A stretch of DNA of 64,000 nucleotides from Terriglobus saanensis SP1PR4. GTDB lineage: Bacteria; Acidobacteriota; Terriglobia; Terriglobales; Acidobacteriaceae. Positions 48,589 to 56,026 of this stretch are shown one piece after another. The translations under genes and the position numbers were made by a program. Within the stretch, counting starts at the first letter, position 1. Each line of letters opens with the position of its first letter. The stretch spans positions 3,720,001-3,784,000 of the forward strand of contig NC_014963.1 of NCBI RefSeq assembly GCF_000179915.2. The letters run 5' to 3'. Below the pieces are notes generated by a model. The model made no database searches, had not been told where the DNA came from, and saw only the letters and a program-made list of their open reading frames with translations.

Positions 48589-48855
48589 TTACGGCTTCGC
48601 AACACGATGCGCCACGATCCTGTCCTTGATCTTGTCGTAGGCTGTCTGCGGCAAAATGCCCTTCTGCACCAGCTGGTTCTTCATCGTATAAGGCCGTCCC
48701 TCCACAACGCGCCTCACGTAGGCGTCGCCCATGCCCGGCAGCGTCTTCAACTGCGCCGCCGTCGCCGTATTCAGATCCAGTAGCGCGTCGGTCGTCTGCG
48801 CCGCACTCCAAAAGCCCGCCAATGCCAGCACGCACACTGCAAACTGTTTCCTCAT
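48589..48855 (-). CDS. Secreted helix-hairpin-helix (ComEA-like) protein
   Basis: 88 aa. Signal peptide at 1-20 (RKQFAVCVLALAGFWSAAQ). The mature part LLDLNTATAAQLKTLPGMGDAYVRRVVEGRPYTMKNQLVQKGILPQTAYDKIKDRIVAHR is a HhH motif with the LNTA.AEQL..LPGIG pattern of ComEA. ComEA binds DNA during uptake and anchors it at the cell surface. Here the protein lacks a membrane anchor and is short, so a role in DNA binding is plausible but unproven. Divergent from the his leader, 86 bases apart. Confidence 0.85.
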   Translation of the reverse strand: MRKQFAVCVLALAGFWSAAQTTDALLDLNTATAAQLKTLPGMGDAYVRRVVEGRPYTMKNQLVQKGILPQTAYDKIKDRIVAHRVAKP

Positions 48856-48900: not shown

Positions 48901-48928
48901 TTGACACCCCAGAGAACCCCAAGATAAC
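48901..48928 (+). promoter_or_regulatory. Promoter of the his operon leader
   Basis: TTGACA (48901-48906), 16-bp spacer, GATAAC (48923-48928). A start near 48935 would put the leader peptide ATG (48941) very close to the 5' end. Confidence 0.5.
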
Positions 48929-48940
48929 CTTGAAGACAGA

Positions 48941-49018
48941 ATGAGCACACGCTTCCATCATCACGGACACCATACCCACGCTCTCAGCGTGCCGGCGTCC
49001 GTTGCTGTGAAGGCGTAA
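48941..49018 (+). CDS. hisL: Histidine operon leader peptide (attenuator), 25 aa
   Basis: ATG 48941 to TAA 49016-49018, too short to be noticed among long ORFs. Residues 6-13 are HHHGHHTH: six His in eight codons (48956-48979). Such a run is the hallmark of attenuator peptides: when charged tRNA-His is scarce the ribosome stalls there. The first pairing segment (CACGCT, 48977-48982) begins with the last His codon, so a stalled ribosome would cover it. No strong ribosome binding site is seen. The hisI gene follows after the terminator. Confidence 0.85.
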   Translation: MSTRFHHHGHHTHALSVPASVAVKA

Positions 49019-49092
49019 CACCGCTCACACAGATTCAACGTAACAAGACCCAGGCCCGCTGAAGCGCATAACCGCTGGCGGGCTTTGTTGTG
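48977..49092 (+). promoter_or_regulatory. his operon transcription attenuator with three alternative pairings
   Basis: Pause hairpin 1:2 is CACGCT/AGCGTG (48977-48982, 48986-48991). Antiterminator 2:3 is CAGCGTGCC (48985-48993) with GGCCCGCTG (49053-49061), 8 of 9 pairs. Terminator 3:4 is GCCCGC/GCGGGC (49054-49059, 49078-49083) with an inner AGCG/CGCT stem, then TTTGTTGTG. 2:3 excludes both 1:2 and 3:4, as required by the leader-peptide attenuation mechanism. The structure comes from manual pairing; no folding program was run. Confidence 0.8.
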
Positions 49093-49148
49093 TCCGCCGC
49101 AGAATGAAACCTAGCTTCGGCCACAACCACCAAAGGACACGGAAAGCA

Positions 49149-49490
49149 ATGTCAGACGCAATCAAGATCGACTTCGCCAAGATGGACGGCCTCGTCCCCG
49201 GCATCGTGCAGGACGCCACGACCGGCCAGGTCCTCATGCTTGGCTTCCTCAACGAAGTCAGCTACGCCAAATCCCTCGAATCCGGCTTCGTCACCTTCTG
49301 GTCGCGCACGCGCTCGAAGCTCTGGATGAAAGGCGAGACCTCAGGCAACCGCCTGAAGATCGTCTCCGTCGCAACGGACTGCGACACCGACGCCCTTCTC
49401 TTCCGTGTAAACGTGGAAGGCGACGGCCTCACCTGCCACGAAGGCACCGTATCCTGCTTCACCAAAAATATTCCTCTGGAGACCCTCTAA
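49149..49490 (+). CDS. hisI: Phosphoribosyl-AMP cyclohydrolase
   Basis: 113 aa from ATG 49149. [89 protein letters not shown] includes the conserved [10 protein letters not shown] loop and the CDxDxxxxxV/CHEG/SCF zinc ligands. It opens the purine ring of phosphoribosyl-AMP (third step). There is no HisE domain, and no hisE is seen in the window. First structural gene of the operon, about 60 bases past the attenuator terminator, with hisG 5 bases downstream. Confidence 0.96.
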
Positions 49491-49495
49491 ACGTC

Positions 49496-50371
49496 ATGGC
49501 AAACAAACTTAAACTCGGCATCCCCAAGGGCTCCCTCCAGGACGCTACCCTCGACCTCTTCAAGCGCGCAGGCTGGGAGATCTATGCCTCCGGACGCAGC
49601 TACTTCCCGACCATCAACGATCCTGAGATCGAGTGCATGCTCGTCCGCGCGCAGGAGATGGCCCGCTACGTAGAGACAGGCGCGCTCGATGCCGGACTCA
49701 CAGGCAACGACTGGATCCTCGAGAACAACTCCGACGTCGAGCGCGTTACTTCGCTTACTTATTCCAAGGCTTCGCGCCAGAAGGTGAAGTGGGTCCTTGC
49801 CGTTCCGGAGAACTCCACCTTCCAGAAGCCGGAAGATCTCGCAGGCAAAGTCATCGCGACCGAGCTTGTGGAGTACACCAAGCGCTACTTCGCCGAGAAG
49901 AACATCCCGGTGAAAGTTGAGTTCTCCTGGGGCGCAACCGAAGTGAAGCCGCCCATGCTCTGCGACGCCATCGTGGAAGTCACCGAGACCGGCAGCTCGC
50001 TCCGCGCGAACCGCCTCCGCATCATCGAAACCCTCATGGAGTCGGAGACGCAGCTGATCGCGAACAAGGCCTCCTACACCGACGAGTGGAAGAAGAAGAA
50101 GATCGGCAACCTTTCCATGATGCTCAACGGCGCGATCGCTGCTCTCTCGCAGGTTGGCCTGATGCTGAATGTGCCTAAAGCAAACCTGGACGCGGTGCTC
50201 AATGTGCTTCCAGCGCTCTCGTCGCCCACCGTCTCGCATCTGCGCGACAGCGACTGGGTCGCCGTAAATACGATCCTGGAAGAGGCTGTCGTGCGCGAAG
50301 TCATCCCCAGGCTGAAGGCAGCAGGTGGCAGCGGCATCGTCGAATACCCGCTGAGCAAAGTCGTCCTCTAG
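49496..50371 (+). CDS. hisG: ATP phosphoribosyltransferase (long form)
   Basis: 291 aa. [28 protein letters not shown], then [19 protein letters not shown] and an HisG C-terminal regulatory domain ([31 protein letters not shown] ... [19 protein letters not shown]). The length (>280) identifies the long, homo-hexameric form with its own ACT-like domain for histidine feedback inhibition, so no hisZ is needed. It commits ATP and PRPP to the pathway. A repeat of the GGAGGGATCTGC family lies between it and hisD. Confidence 0.96.
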
Positions 50372-50397
50372 CTCTTGTCACCCATTGCCCCTTTTTT

Positions 50398-50430
50398 TCA
50401 TCCCGTAGCGCAGCGGAGGGATCTGCTTTT
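50398..50430 (+). repeat. Intergenic repeat fragment inside the his operon
   Basis: TCATCCCGTAGCGCAGCGG followed by AGGGATCTGCTTTT (50417-50430) matches the right end of the element at 31191-31224 (GTCATCCCGCAGCGAAGCGA, AGGGATCTGCTTTT). It occupies most of the 120-bp gap between hisG and hisD. Confidence 0.75.
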
Positions 50431-50491
50431 CCCCTTAGCTGCGCTATAAGAACCACCGAAAGCAAATGGGGCCCAGCCCCGAGGTAAAGCA

Positions 50492-51814
50492 ATGAAGCTC
50501 ATCCACACCTTCGGCGAATCCAAAGAGCGCGCAGACAAACTGCTTGCCGAGCTCGAAATCCGCGGGGCCTCCAACACCGCCAAGGTGGACACGACCGTCC
50601 GCACCATACTGGCCGACATCCGCCATGGCGGCGACGCCTCTCTCATCGAGTACGCCGGCCGCCTCGACGGCCTTCGCCTCGGCTGTCCCGAGAAAGGCGA
50701 GCCCGACCAGTCCTTCCGTGTCACGCGTGAAGAGATGCTGGCCGCATGGAACGACACCGAGCCCGCGCTGCAGGCCGCCATGCGTCTCGCGCAGGCGAAC
50801 ATTCTTGCCTTCGCCGAGCGTCAGCTTCCCAAACCCTTCAGCTTCCGCCCCGTCGAAGGCATGGAGGTCGGACAGATCGTCCGTCCTCTCTCCTCGGTCG
50901 GCTGTTACGTCCCCGGCGGACGCTATCCGCTGCCTTCGACCCTGCTGATGACGGCCACCCCCGCGCAGGTCGCTGGTGTGAAACGCATCGTCGTCTGTTC
51001 GCCCAAGCCCGCGAAAGAGACCCTCGCCGCCGCGCATCTCGCAGGCATCACCGAGTTCTATCGCATCGGCGGAGCGCAGGCCATCGCCGCGATGGCCTAT
51101 GGCACCGAAACCATCAAGCCTGTAGACAAGATCGTCGGCCCCGGCAATCTCTACGTCACCGCCGCCAAGATCGCTGTCTCGCACGAGTGCGGCATCGACA
51201 TGCCTGCTGGCCCTACGGAGATCGTCTACACCTCGGAGATCGGTAACCCTGCAGGCATCGCCGCTGATCTCGTTGCGCAGGCCGAGCACGACCCTGAAGC
51301 CCTCGCCATCCTCATCACCACGCGCGAAGACCTCGCCAAGCAGGTCATCGCCGAAGCCGAGCGTCAGTCCGCAGACAACGAGATCGCCAAGCAGTCGCTC
51401 GCAGCGCAGGGCTACGCCTTCGTCACCGACACCATCGAAGAAGCGCGCACGCTCACCAACCGCCTTGCGCCCGAACACCTCACCGTGGACACCGGAGCGG
51501 ATCTGCGCTGGGTGCAGAACGCGGGTTCCGTCTTCATCGGCCATCACACGCCGCAGTCCATGGGCGACTACATCTCCGGCCCCAACCACGTTCTTCCTAC
51601 CGGACGCGTCGGTCGCATGCGCGCCGGTCTCTCCGTGCTGGACTTCGTGAAGATCATCACCGTGCAACAGTACACACGCGCGGCGCTGCACGAGATTGGC
51701 CCGCACACCATCACCCTTGCCGAAGCTGAAGGCCTGACCGCCCACGCTGAGTCCGTGCGTGTCCGCATGTTGCTCGACGACCAGGGCCAGGACCCCGAAG
51801 GGAAGATCCAATGA
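50492..51814 (+). CDS. hisD: Histidinol dehydrogenase
   Basis: 440 aa. VGCYVPGGRYPLPSTLLMTATPAQVAGVKRIVVCSPK, GPGNLYVTAAKIAVSHECGIDMPAGPTEIV, and the active-site GSVFIGHHTPQSMGDYISGPNHVLPTGRVGRMRAGLSVLDFVKI are the HisD signature, with the zinc-binding and catalytic His/Glu residues retained. NAD-dependent oxidation of histidinol to histidine (last two steps). The stop overlaps the hisC start by 4 bases. Confidence 0.97.
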   Translation: MKLIHTFGESKERADKLLAELEIRGASNTAKVDTTVRTILADIRHGGDASLIEYAGRLDGLRLGCPEKGEPDQSFRVTREEMLAAWNDTEPALQAAMRLAQANILAFAERQLPKPFSFRPVEGMEVGQIVRPLSSVGCYVPGGRYPLPSTLLMTATPAQVAGVKRIVVCSPKPAKETLAAAHLAGITEFYRIGGAQAIAAMAYGTETIKPVDKIVGPGNLYVTAAKIAVSHECGIDMPAGPTEIVYTSEIGNPAGIAADLVAQAEHDPEALAILITTREDLAKQVIAEAERQSADNEIAKQSLAAQGYAFVTDTIEEARTLTNRLAPEHLTVDTGADLRWVQNAGSVFIGHHTPQSMGDYISGPNHVLPTGRVGRMRAGLSVLDFVKIITVQQYTRAALHEIGPHTITLAEAEGLTAHAESVRVRMLLDDQGQDPEGKIQ

Positions 51815-52929
51815 GCGTTAATCCGCGCAAAGGCATTCTCAGCATGCCGGAGTACCACCCGCCACTCGCGGGCCGGAACGCCATGCGTCTCGACTTCAAC
51901 GAGAACACCTTTGCCCCTTCACCGAAGGTGCTCGAGGTTTTGCAGAGCACCACGCTCGAAGACCTCACCATCTACCCGGAGCGCGAGCCGCGCGAACGCA
52001 TCGCCGCAGCACACCTCGGGCTTGCGCCGGAGCATGTGCTGCTCACTAACGCCGTCGATGAAGCCATTCACCTCGTCACCTACACCTTCCTCAATGAAGG
52101 CGATGAGGTGATCTTCGCCGTACCCAGCTTCTTCATGTACGACGTGAACTGCATGGCCATGGGAGCGAACGTGATCCGGGTGCAGGCAGAGGATACGCTG
52201 GCCTTCCCCTACGAGCGCCTCCTCGCAGCCATCACGCCGAAGACGAAGCTCATCATCCTCTGCACGCCGAACAATCCCACGGGCACCACGATTCCGAGCG
52301 CGCAGATCAAGACCATCGCCGCAACCGCCCCGCATGCAGTGGTTCTTCTCGATGAAGCGTACTTCCACTTCTTCGGCGAGACGATGATGCCCGAGATCGA
52401 CACCATTCCGAATCTCGTCATCGCGCGCACCTTCTCCAAGGCCTACGGCCTGGCGAACCTGCGCATCGGTCTGCTCGCAACCAACACTGGACTAATGAAG
52501 CATCTGCGTAAAGCTGCGTCGCCCTACAACGTGAACGGTATCGCCCTCCGCGCGCTGGAAGCCGCGATGGAAGACACGACTTATCTCGACTGGTACTGCG
52601 CACAGGTCACCACGGGGCGAGACAAACTCGCAACAGCTTTGAAGGAGATGCAGATTCCCTTCTGGCCGTCGCACGCTAACTTCCTTCTCACGCGCATCGG
52701 GCCGAAGCATAAGCAGCTTATCGCCGCCATGCGCACGCGCGGCATCCTTCTGCGCGATCGCTCCTCCGACCCCGGCCTGCAGGGATGCGTGCGCATCACC
52801 ATCGGCGTGGAGGAGCAGTTAGAGAAGTGCATCGTTGCGCTCAGAGAATCATTAAGTGAAATCAACTGGACACCTGCCGACGCAAAAATTGTCGACACCG
52901 AAACCGAACCAGCGAGGGAATATGAGTAA
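51811..52929 (+). CDS. hisC: Histidinol-phosphate aminotransferase
   Basis: 372 aa. [20 protein letters not shown] at the start, [30 protein letters not shown], and the PLP-lysine motif [18 protein letters not shown]. Type I aminotransferase fold. It converts imidazole-acetol phosphate to histidinol phosphate. The C-terminus overlaps the hisB start by 8 bases, so translation is coupled. The histidinol-phosphate phosphatase is not in the window. Confidence 0.96.
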
Positions 52930-53587
52930 GTCCGCAAGCAAGACCGTGAAGAATACAGCCGCTCTACCCGAAGTCGTTGCCGTACCGAAGGCGCTCAAGC
53001 CCCGCACCGGCAGCGTAAAGCGCGACACCACTGAGACGCAGATTGCGTTGAAGCTGATCATCGATGGCCAGGGCGTCTACAAGGTCTCCACCGGCATCCG
53101 CTTCTTCGACCACATGCTGGAGCTCTTCACGCGCCACGGCGGCTTCGACCTCACGCTCACCTGCACCGGCGACCTCGACGTCGACCAGCACCACACCGTG
53201 GAAGACGTGGGCATCGCGCTTGGCGAAGCCTTCGACAAGGCCCTGGGCAACAAGAAGGGCATTCTTCGCGCGGGCTACTTTGTCATGGCCATGGACGAGA
53301 CGCTTGCCGTCGCCGCCGTCGATCTCTCAGGCCGCGTCGCTTACATCGTCGACGACAAGGTCAAGACCCGCCTCGTAGGCGACTTCCAGACCGAACTGCT
53401 CGCAGACTTCTTCGATGGCTTTGCCCGCGGCGCTCGTGCCAACGTTCACGTCAAGACGATGTACGGACGCTCGAACCATCACAAGATCGAAGCCATCTTC
53501 AAAGCATTCGCGCGGGCACTGCGTGGAGCCTGCTCACGCGATGAGCGCATGAAGGATTTGCTGCCCAGCACCAAAGGCTTGCTCTAA
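52922..53587 (+). CDS. hisB: Imidazoleglycerol-phosphate dehydratase
   Basis: 221 aa from ATG 52922 (overlap with hisC). An Ala/Lys-rich N-terminal extension precedes the fold. It has the manganese-site motifs [19 protein letters not shown] and [19 protein letters not shown], and the second repeat [27 protein letters not shown]. Monofunctional: no HAD-type histidinol-phosphatase domain. Catalyses the sixth step. The stop is followed by 13 bases and an unknown membrane-protein gene. Confidence 0.96.
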
Positions 53588-53600
53588 AAATCGAAACTGA

Positions 53601-53873
53601 ATGTTAAAAAACAAGACATTACGACTGGTTTGCCATGCGCTCAGCGCATTCAGTCTTTTGTATTTTTGCGATCTCCTTCTGGCGATCTGTTCAGTCAATG
53701 TTCCTACCCCATCGATGTCACCTTCTCTGTGGGTTTGGTCGTTCTTGTTTTTCGCGGTTGTTCCATTGCTTTCTGGATTCTTGGCATCGCGGTGGTGGTT
53801 CATTCTTGCAGCAGCGTATTTCATAGCCATCGTTTTCGTATTCAAGCAAACGTTTCTCCCGAGACCCCTATGA
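53601..53873 (+). CDS. Unknown small membrane protein inside the his operon, 90 aa
   Basis: ATG 53601 to TGA 53871-53873, which overlaps the ATG of hisH by 3 bases (ATGA). Three predicted membrane helices: LVCHALSAFSLLYFCDLLLAICS, LWVWSFLFFAVVPLLSGFLA, and WFILAAAYFIAIVFVF. It has no recognisable domain. Base composition is lower in GC than its neighbours (many TTT/TTG/ATT codons), which may indicate a later insertion. Overlap with hisH suggests its translation could help hisH initiation. A function in histidine synthesis is not expected from the sequence. Confidence 0.75.
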   Translation: MLKNKTLRLVCHALSAFSLLYFCDLLLAICSVNVPTPSMSPSLWVWSFLFFAVVPLLSGFLASRWWFILAAAYFIAIVFVFKQTFLPRPL

Positions 53874-54478
53874 TCGAAGTCATCGACTACAAAGCCGGAA
53901 ACCTTACCTCCGTAGTGAAAGCTCTCAATTTTCTCGGAGCGGAGACACACGTCACTCAGTCCCCCGACGACGTGCGGAATGCCACAAAGATCGTCCTCCC
54001 CGGCGTAGGACACTTCCGCGCCACGCAGCTCCTCCACGATCTCCAGCTCACCGTAGCTACACGCGAAGCCATCGCCAACGGCGTTCCCTTCCTCGGCATC
54101 TGTGTCGGCCTGCAGTGGCTCTACGACGGCTCCACGGAAGCTGACACTACCGACGGCCTAGGCCACTTCAACGCCACCGTCGAGCGCTTCCCCACACACT
54201 TCCAGGACGCCGAGCTCAAGAGCCCGCACGTAGGCTGGAACTCCCTCGAAGCGATCCGTGAAGATTCGCGTCTCCTGCGTGGCATCGCCCCCGGTTCGTT
54301 CGTCTACTACACCCACTCCTGGCGCGCGCCCGTCAGCACAGACACCGCCGCGGCCACGGAGTACGGCGGTCTGTTTACCGCCGCCGTCGAACGCAACAAC
54401 GTCATGGGCGTCCAGTTCCATCCAGAAAAATCCGGCGAGACCGGCCTCCAAATCCTTCGCAATTTTTTAGAACTGTAA
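53870..54478 (+). CDS. hisH: Imidazole glycerol phosphate synthase, glutaminase subunit
   Basis: 202 aa. [28 protein letters not shown] at the start. The nucleophile loop is [13 protein letters not shown] (Cys), and the His/Glu of the triad are in [13 protein letters not shown]. It releases ammonia from Gln for HisF. YTHSW and HVGWNSLE segments are typical. The start overlaps the upstream membrane protein stop (ATGA). Confidence 0.96.
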
Positions 54479-54512
54479 TGACCATGGCATCGCAAGACCG
54501 GATAGAAAAATC

Positions 54513-55289
54513 ATGCTGACCAAACGCATCATCGCCTGCCTCGACGTCCGTGACGGACGCGTCGTCAAAGGCATCCAGTTCCTCGACATCATCGACGCCG
54601 GTGACCCTGCCGAACTCGCCCACCGTCACGCTGCTCTTGGTGCGGACGAGATCGTGCTCCTCGACATCACCGCCACGCACGAGGGCCGAGGCACACTCCT
54701 CGAAACCGTGAAGCGCGCCGCCTCGCAGCTCTTTATCCCCTTCACCGTCGGCGGAGGCATCCGCTCCGCAGCGGACGCCGAAGCCGTCTTTACCGCAGGC
54801 GCAGACAAGGTATCCATCAACTCCTCCGCCATCGCGCGGCCAGAGCTCATAGGCGAGATCGGAGCGAGCTTCGGAGCCCAGGCCGTCATCGTTGCGATTG
54901 ACGCACGCCGCTCCACCACCGGCAACGCCATCACCGACGCCGAGGTCTACGTCTCCGGAGGCCGCAAGCCCACCGGGCGCAAGGTCATCGACTGGGCGCG
55001 CGAGGCCGAAGATCGTGGCGCAGGCGAGATCCTTCTCACGTCCATGGACTCTGACGGCACACGCTCCGGCTTCGATGACGAACTCACCGCCGCCGTCTCC
55101 AGCGCCGTGCAGATCCCCGTCATCGCCAGCGGAGGCGCGGGAAACGCGCAGCACTTCGCCGATGTTTTCAAGGCAGGCCGCGCCGACGCCGCTCTCGCCG
55201 CCAGCATATTTCACTTCGGCGTCACCAGCAGCCGTGCCCTGAAAGAAGAACTCGCAGCGCAGGGAATCCCCATGCGCTTGCCGTGCTAA
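54513..55289 (+). CDS. hisF: Imidazole glycerol phosphate synthase, cyclase subunit
   Basis: 258 aa (beta/alpha)8 barrel: [84 protein letters not shown], and [17 protein letters not shown], with catalytic Asp11 and the second Asp in MDSDGT. Forms a complex with HisH and produces IGP and AICAR. Slightly short C-terminus but otherwise canonical. Confidence 0.96.
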
Positions 55290-55324
55290 TCGAATATCCA
55301 GCTAAGAAATAAAGAAGAGGCAGA

Positions 55325-56026
55325 ATGCTTATCCCCTCCATTGACCTTATGAACGGCCAGATCGTCCAGCTTGTCCAGGGCGAAAAACTTAAGCTCGCCT
55401 TTGACGACTTCGATTACTGGATCGACCGCTTCAGCAAATATCCGCTTGTGCAACTCATCGACCTCGACGCCGCCATGCGCCAGGGCTCGAATGCCTCGCT
55501 CATCTCGCGCTTTACGGACAAGCTTCCCTGCCAGATCGGCGGAGGTCTCAAGAGCGCCGAAGACGGCCAGCGTCTCCTCGATCTCGGCGCCAAGCGCGTG
55601 ATCTATGGCTCATCGCTCTTCGGTGGCGACAACGAGGCCGACCGCAAGCGCCACGCGATCCTCAATCTCCCCTTTGCCGAGAATCTGAAGAAGCAACTGG
55701 GCGAAGAGCAGCTAGTCTTCTCCGTGGATACCAAAAACGGCAAGGTTGCCGTCAAGGGTTGGAAGGAATCTGTCGACCTCACGCCGGAAGAGGCCGTCAC
55801 CTGGCTCGAAGACTCCTGCGCCGCCTTCCTCTACACCCACGTCGATACGGAAGGCACCATGAGTGGCTTCCCCATCGAAGTCGCGGCGATCCTTCGCGCC
55901 TGCACCGCCAAGCAGCTCATCGTCGCCGGTGGCATCAAGTCCGCGGACGAGATCACCGAACTCGACAACATGGGCGTAGATGCCGTCGCGGGCATGGCCG
56001 TATACTCGGGGGCGATGGAGGCCTAG
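55325..56026 (+). CDS. hisA: HisA-type ProFAR isomerase
   Basis: 233 aa barrel. MLIPSIDLMNGQIVQLVQGEKLKLAFDDFDYW at the start: the catalytic Asp is kept in IDLMNG, but the usual VRL is VQL. CQIGGGLKSAEDGQRLLDLGAKRVIYGSS and VFSVDTKNGKVAVKGWKES carry the second catalytic Asp. TEGTMSGFPIEVAAILRAC closes the barrel. Somewhat divergent from proteobacterial HisA. Catalyses the fourth step. It is the last his gene; the next ORF starts 4 bases after the stop. Confidence 0.93.
   Translation: MLIPSIDLMNGQIVQLVQGEKLKLAFDDFDYWIDRFSKYPLVQLIDLDAAMRQGSNASLISRFTDKLPCQIGGGLKSAEDGQRLLDLGAKRVIYGSSLFGGDNEADRKRHAILNLPFAENLKKQLGEEQLVFSVDTKNGKVAVKGWKESVDLTPEEAVTWLEDSCAAFLYTHVDTEGTMSGFPIEVAAILRACTAKQLIVAGGIKSADEITELDNMGVDAVAGMAVYSGAMEA

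Follow-up and report, generated by a model that had tools for sequence, protein, structure and literature searches.

The window, a stretch of 64,000 nucleotides from Terriglobus saanensis SP1PR4, contains a histidine operon preceded by a short leader, Table 1. A preliminary description of this DNA had claimed a 25-codon reading frame with HHHGHHTH at residues 6-13, followed by competing hairpins, a terminator and hisI. The reading frame, hisL, was found exactly as given, and a PRA-CH gene follows the leader and terminator at 49149, with the remainder of the operon behind it (49496..56026, all in one direction). A short frame with consecutive His codons ahead of histidine biosynthesis genes also characterises a classical his attenuator. 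In E. coli the operon starts with hisG, while here it starts with hisI. A 90-codon frame for a hydrophobic, membrane-like protein (53601-53873) lies between hisB and hisH inside the operon. On the other side of the leader, a small divergent helix-hairpin-helix gene (HHH_3, ComEA-like, 48589-48855, minus strand) shares its promoter gap with hisL.

Table 1. Features of the leader and the histidine operon, in coordinates of the window.
Feature	Position	Strand	Basis and remarks
Predicted promoter	48901..48930	+	TTGACA 48901-48906, 18-nt spacer, TAACCT 48925-48930
hisL leader peptide ORF	48941..49018	+	MSTRFHHHGHHTHALSVPASVAVKA, 25 codons, stop TAA 49016-49018
Regulatory His codons 6-8, 10-11, 13	48956..48979	+	Six His in eight codons; sequence and stall scan
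1:2 hairpin (anti-antiterminator or pause type)	48963..49002	+	Folding, -18.1 kcal/mol; apical part 48977-48991
Arm 2, antiterminator 5' arm	48979..48993	+	Overlaps 3' side of 1:2 hairpin; encodes conserved tail residues after the His run
Arm 3, antiterminator 3' arm and terminator 5' arm	49053..49066	+	Folding, arm pairing
Intrinsic terminator	49053..49094	+	Hairpin 49053-49084, -18.9 kcal/mol, then U-rich tail TTGTTGTGT
hisI, first operon gene	49149..49490	+	Pfam PRA-CH, 2.2e-28
hisG	49496-50371	+	Pfam HisG with HisG_C
hisD	50492-51814	+	Pfam histidinol dehydrogenase
hisC-like aminotransferase	51811-52929	+	Pfam class I/II aminotransferase; hisC by position
hisB	52856-53587	+	Pfam IGPD
hisH	within ORF 53630-54478	+	Pfam GATase; hisH by position
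hisF	54513-55289	+	Pfam His_biosynth; F/A assignment by class and order
hisA	55325-56026	+	Pfam His_biosynth; F/A assignment by class and order

Across relatives the leader peptide is kept as a His-rich 19-31-mer, and its tail after the His run tracks the RNA arms and varies widely between branches. Among 48 related, non-independent pairs, hisL carries 125, 142 and 282 substitutions at codon positions 1, 2 and 3. In the same pairs, codons with a single difference are synonymous in 146 cases and not synonymous in 114, and differing His codons show 64 CAT/CAC swaps and 63 other changes.

The hisL stop lies 34 nt from the terminator hairpin and 130 nt from hisI. An RGATT motif, often CAGGATTC or AAGGATT, recurs between the stop and the terminator (the interval 49019-49052 in the window). 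Of 52 distinct family intervals 28 contain it, where shuffles predict 5.2, a comparison that does not correct for kinship; outside the family it occurs in 6 of 42 intervals, with 3.7 expected. The motif may be a pause or protein site.

Competing structures in the leader RNA

Folding and arm pairing confirm that an anti-antiterminator, an antiterminator and a terminator compete for the same bases, as had been proposed. The first hairpin, placed earlier at 48977-48991, is present as the tip of a larger one; its stem CACGCT/AGCGTG (48977-48982/48986-48991, -6.3 kcal/mol) does begin at the last His codon, and pausing might be expected at this 1:2 hairpin. For the antiterminator, the pairing given before (48985-48993 with 49053-49061) was borne out, but its extent was too short: arms 2 and 3 pair over 48979-48993/49053-49066 with 13 pairs and two mismatches, and the duplex has an energy of -22.2 kcal/mol. 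The terminator, previously set at 49054-49083, agrees within a few bases with the hairpin that we find, which ends 64 nt before the hisI ATG. A T-rich run does follow it, though a modest one, and the U tail is modest in the genus. Arm 3 is common to antiterminator and terminator, as in classical his attenuators, and when the whole leader with the complete terminator is folded, the 1:2 hairpin and the terminator form. Generic scanners detected 0 promoters and 0 terminators in the window leader, because the terminator stem is bulged with a long loop and the -10 hexamer is poor.

To relate structure to translation, the RNA left free with each codon in the ribosomal A site was folded, and the probability that arm 3 is sequestered was read out. 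In these folds, which represent equilibrium without kinetics or pausing, the mean sequestration over 58 representatives falls from 0.81 on the first His codon to 0.78 after five codons, 0.47 after nine and 0.25 after twelve, and stands at 0.22 with the ribosome on the stop codon. The window gives 0.92 on His 6-8, then 0.68 on His 10, 0.63 on His 11 and 0.21 on His 13; past the run it is 0.08 at codons 15-16, about 0.5 at codons 21-23 (0.51 at 22-23) and 0.27 at the stop. In the model, therefore, stalls on the His codons leave the terminator 5' arm sequestered, and it is largely released once the ribosome has passed the run.

The preliminary description had proposed folding the leader with and without the first hairpin arm. 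Over 100 leaders the mean is 0.78 when stalled at the first His, 0.61 without a ribosome and 0.18 with the ribosome at the stop. Control leaders with shuffled middles give 0.60 stalled and 0.58 without a ribosome. Ribosome position on the His codons thus selects the structure in silico, as in the classical system, with five of the 100 leaders behaving in the opposite way (L010, L011, L018, L021, L023), i.e. stalled well below released. Further, 22 of the 100 stay above 0.3 with the ribosome at the stop, and stalled exceeds released by 0.2 in only 38. Folded up to arm 3 without a ribosome, the window favours the antiterminator at 0.92, equal to the stalled value, so the switch there would rest on the ribosome moving over arm 2. 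This value and the no-ribosome mean also imply that, in the model, the 1:2 hairpin alone gives no guarantee of termination.

Covariation of the stems in relatives had been suggested as a check. Since the stretch from leader to terminator aligns unreliably, column-wise covariation (MAFFT) was replaced by a permutation, in which the duplex energy of each leader's own arms 2 and 3 is compared with that of swapped arms. Over 58 representatives the own arms sum to -1127 kcal/mol. Permuted arms average -949 (sd 21), and 0 of 20000 permutations reach the own-arm value; the representatives are less than 0.80 similar yet related, so this count is no clean probability. The family alone gives 0 of 20000 (21 representatives) and the other branches 85 of 20000 (11 representatives). 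In 8 of the 58 no other arm 2 pairs better than the leader's own, and for one representative all 57 others do better. The antiterminator arms coevolve.

A hairpin with a T-rich tail was accepted as a terminator in 100 of 102 leaders; the other two, L131 and L139, have weak hairpins only and no credible terminator. Of 60 representatives, 54 have a terminator score below the 1% point of shuffled sequence. In a few leaders (e.g. L134, L138, L145) the hairpin lies less than 10 nt from the estimated hisI start.

Distribution in the phylum and predicted promoter

Among 61 relatives, 51 have hisI. The best 30 of these 51 loci all have a short His-rich ORF, with at least 5 His in 8 residues, 135-249 nt upstream of hisI. 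Further loci were examined with a stricter test (at least 4 His in 8 residues), which is passed by 21 out of 3760 Markov shuffles and by a single one out of 188 antisense regions. From the remaining 21 loci 20 were taken (G057 was left out), one belonging to the family and 19 to different genera and families within the order or class. The ORF precedes hisI in 16 of them, and no leader was found at the other four (L039, L040, L049, L050), L040 having a weak RHHRIH ORF. A second set of 20 family loci all have the leader. The search of relatives for a His-rich frame before hisI, which had been proposed as a check, was thus positive at 30/30 and 20/20 family loci, and the case named as speaking against the attenuator, absence of the His run or of the competing stems in relatives, did not arise within the family.

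In the phylum, 162 of 257 genomes have hisI, and the 20 best-scoring loci outside the class all have the leader. The leader therefore recurs in deep branches of the phylum, which goes beyond the earlier account. At 20 lower-scoring loci picked across the list (L151-L170) no leader was found; there, hisI is often inside a longer open frame, which suggests a fused or internal hisI.

Of 80 named loci, 16 have a leader. It is present in 13 of 15 loci labelled Acidobacteria or groups of it (Acidobacteriaceae, Bryobacterales, Vicinamibacterales, Terriglobia), and in 3 of 65 with other labels. The best HisI matches among the named loci (L051-L054, 78-79% identity) are labelled Acidobacteriaceae or Acidobacteria. 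The three exceptions (L057, L069, L089) are MAG contigs labelled Cyanobacteria, Armatimonadetes and Ferrithrix. The label of L057 is probably wrong, because its leader peptide is identical to that of L148 from the phylum of the window; the leaders of L069 and L089 may be on mislabelled contigs or transferred.

For 29 genomes (those of L151-L170, L039, L049 and L050, and six family genomes without hisI) we searched for hisG, which was found in 23. Three of the 25 loci scanned, out of 27 hisG loci, have a His-rich leader ORF, all three in other branches of the phylum. In L277 (1331) it lies ahead of hisG; in L276 (178) and L286 (393) it precedes a gene upstream of hisG whose translation resembles HisZ, and terminator-like hairpins follow the leader. 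Leaders at hisG-first and apparently hisZ-first operons mean that the element is not tied to hisI. In L286 a TTGACA promoter-like site is close to the leader ATG. The six family genomes without a hisI match (G019, G022, G025, G028, G029, G032) also have no hisG match, and may be histidine auxotrophs or incomplete genomes.

In 16 genomes including T. saanensis, short ORFs rich in the cognate amino acid were sought upstream of ilvB (13 loci), leuA (16), trpE (15) and pheS (15), genes that may not head their operons, and 0, 1, 1 and 0 were found. The single leuA and trpE matches are not common to relatives, and under the thresholds used there is no sign of parallel attenuators.

The divergent gene upstream confines the promoter to a short gap before hisL. 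In the window the predicted -10 element ends 10 nt before the ATG, and transcription is predicted to start at about 48937, some 4 nt before hisL. The comparison covered 100 leaders that differ in their upstream sequence. In 76 of these, TTGACA with no more than one mismatch is followed, after a spacer of 16-19 nt, by a TAnnnT whose end lies 4-13 nt from the ATG, against 5 of 2000 shuffles; some promoter model fits 81 and none fits 19. With the median gap of 9 nt the 5' UTR would measure about 3 nt, and gaps of 6-13 would give 0-7 nt, i.e. hisL is predicted from sequence to be near-leaderless in most leaders, an aspect absent from the earlier interpretation that takes the system beyond it. The anti-Shine-Dalgarno energy averages -1.5 kcal/mol for hisL versus -5.3 for 83 hisI starts. 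Classical attenuation requires synchronised transcription and translation. The near-leaderless start is a puzzle in that the ribosome would have to load on an AUG practically at the 5' end of the RNA, and the hisL leader would lend itself naturally to reporting on leaderless initiation in this group. In three Acidobacteria genomes, the cited part of one study estimates 13.3% leaderless genes (PMC3160421).

Mechanism, alternatives and known systems

The leader ORF, the terminator in 100 of 102 leaders, the coevolving arms and the folding by ribosome position support the classical layout claimed before, and the leader is very probably a ribosome-mediated transcription attenuator of the his operon. 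For the cell we infer a start of transcription, stalling, termination and a response to histidine as follows. RNA polymerase would start near 48937, and translation would have to be initiated at an AUG very close to the 5' terminus. Under a shortage of His-tRNA, the ribosome would stall on His codons 6-11 and the 1:2 hairpin would form incompletely; arm 2 would then pair with arm 3, no terminator would arise and the operon would be transcribed. When His-tRNA is plentiful, the ribosome would run over arm 2 to the stop and leave arm 3 free, so that the terminator could form and transcription would end 64 nt before hisI.

The last hairpin could instead hide the ribosome-binding site of hisI rather than terminate transcription. 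Such translational attenuation is described for some attenuators in the cited part of PMC9413887, and it would suit L134, L138 and L145, with the hairpin close to hisI, as well as L131 and L139, which have no credible terminator. The window hairpin, however, ends far upstream of the hisI ATG (64 nt), and a hairpin with a T tail in 100/102 leaders, scoring beyond shuffles in 54/60, argues for termination; we regard translational attenuation as improbable. The leader might also mainly supply ribosomes to hisI by reinitiation or coupling, in line with the peaks of leader genes near structural genes, Acidobacteria included, reported in the part of PMC4833913 consulted. That peak is at 10-16 nt, while hisL stops 130 nt from hisI, and hisI has its own Shine-Dalgarno potential, as the energies above show, which makes a main role of this kind very improbable.

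That hisL is a functional His-rich small protein, e.g. a metal-binding one, with its position before hisI being secondary, would fit a conserved 19-31-mer with a codon-position bias. Against this, the His run always occurs with His biosynthesis, the tail residues follow the RNA arms and differ between branches, and terminator and antiterminator are conserved along with the peptide; such a protein is hardly to be expected. The shortness of the ORF is all that favours a chance His-rich frame beside an ordinary terminator. Its conservation and the null tests for ORF, arms, promoter and terminator leave this with a negligible probability, and a chance origin of the His-rich ORF is refuted by the relatives.

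The attenuator reading can be extended, tentatively and with considerable doubt, to a his attenuator of ancient origin that is common among Acidobacteriota and unites promoter and leader peptide in a single module. Its transcript would start 0-7 nt before hisL, so that a 70S-type, Shine-Dalgarno-independent start would be built into the sensor. The module would head hisI-first, hisG-first and probably hisZ-first operons, and the terminated leaderless RNA could act in trans as a small mRNA, as reported for rnTrpL of S. meliloti. The attenuator itself carries ribosome-mediated his attenuation, reported in the literature consulted for Proteobacteria and for Firmicutes, into numerous lineages of a major soil phylum, and gives Acidobacteriota genomes a testable regulatory element that is missing from Rfam.

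The his leader-peptide switch is well known from E. coli, and the kind of mechanism is textbook knowledge; what sets this leader apart is the phylum, the absence from Rfam and the predicted near-leaderless start. Against Rfam the window leader gave 0 matches at the gathering threshold and 0 at E up to 10. With stricter filters, a search of 60 family genomes for RF00514 (E <= 0.001) found it in none, and among the controls E. coli and C. glutamicum were positive. Twenty selected loci matched no Rfam family, and a His T-box riboswitch had no Rfam match in the window or in 20 other loci. In agreement with the preliminary description, which was aware of no such report, the literature searched, with subscription papers largely outside it, yielded no description of a his leader-peptide attenuator in Acidobacteriota, and an earlier one is possible. 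The cited passages of PMC2965389 state that leader-peptide systems outside Proteobacteria and Actinobacteria were unknown until then and add Firmicutes; they assign a function to almost none of the Acidobacteria attenuators of 2010. For histidine operons of Actinobacteria, no conserved upstream RNA element was found in the part of PMC1262725 cited here. Leader genes near structural genes have been counted with Acidobacteria included, his attenuation not being named in the passages cited (PMC4833913).

The classical enterobacterial and proteobacterial his attenuator (hisL, RF00514 His_leader) is alike in its run of cognate His codons, alternative hairpins, intrinsic terminator and downstream his operon, but it differs in that the element described here has no Rfam match and a hisL predicted to be near-leaderless. 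According to the parts cited, his attenuators of some Firmicutes (hisS/hisZ, PMC2965389; his operons of the B. cereus group, Eubacteriales and Erysipelotrichales, PMC9413887) also combine a His-run peptide with a terminator and antiterminator outside Proteobacteria, likewise without an RF00514 match. They belong to another phylum, with 17 genomes in PMC9413887, and are set apart here by description and not by sequence comparison. Mycobacterial Cys-rich upstream ORFs resemble hisL as short amino-acid-rich frames that precede genes for the matching metabolism, in a phylum with many leaderless transcripts, but concern cysteine and another phylum, and attenuation is still speculative in the passages cited (PMC4633059). 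For the start, there is a likeness to trpL of Sinorhizobium meliloti (rnTrpL/peTrpL), an attenuator leader peptide whose RNA starts at the AUG (PMC7298713, as cited in part); it differs in sensing Trp, in belonging to Alphaproteobacteria and in having a start that was mapped experimentally, whereas the start of hisL is predicted.
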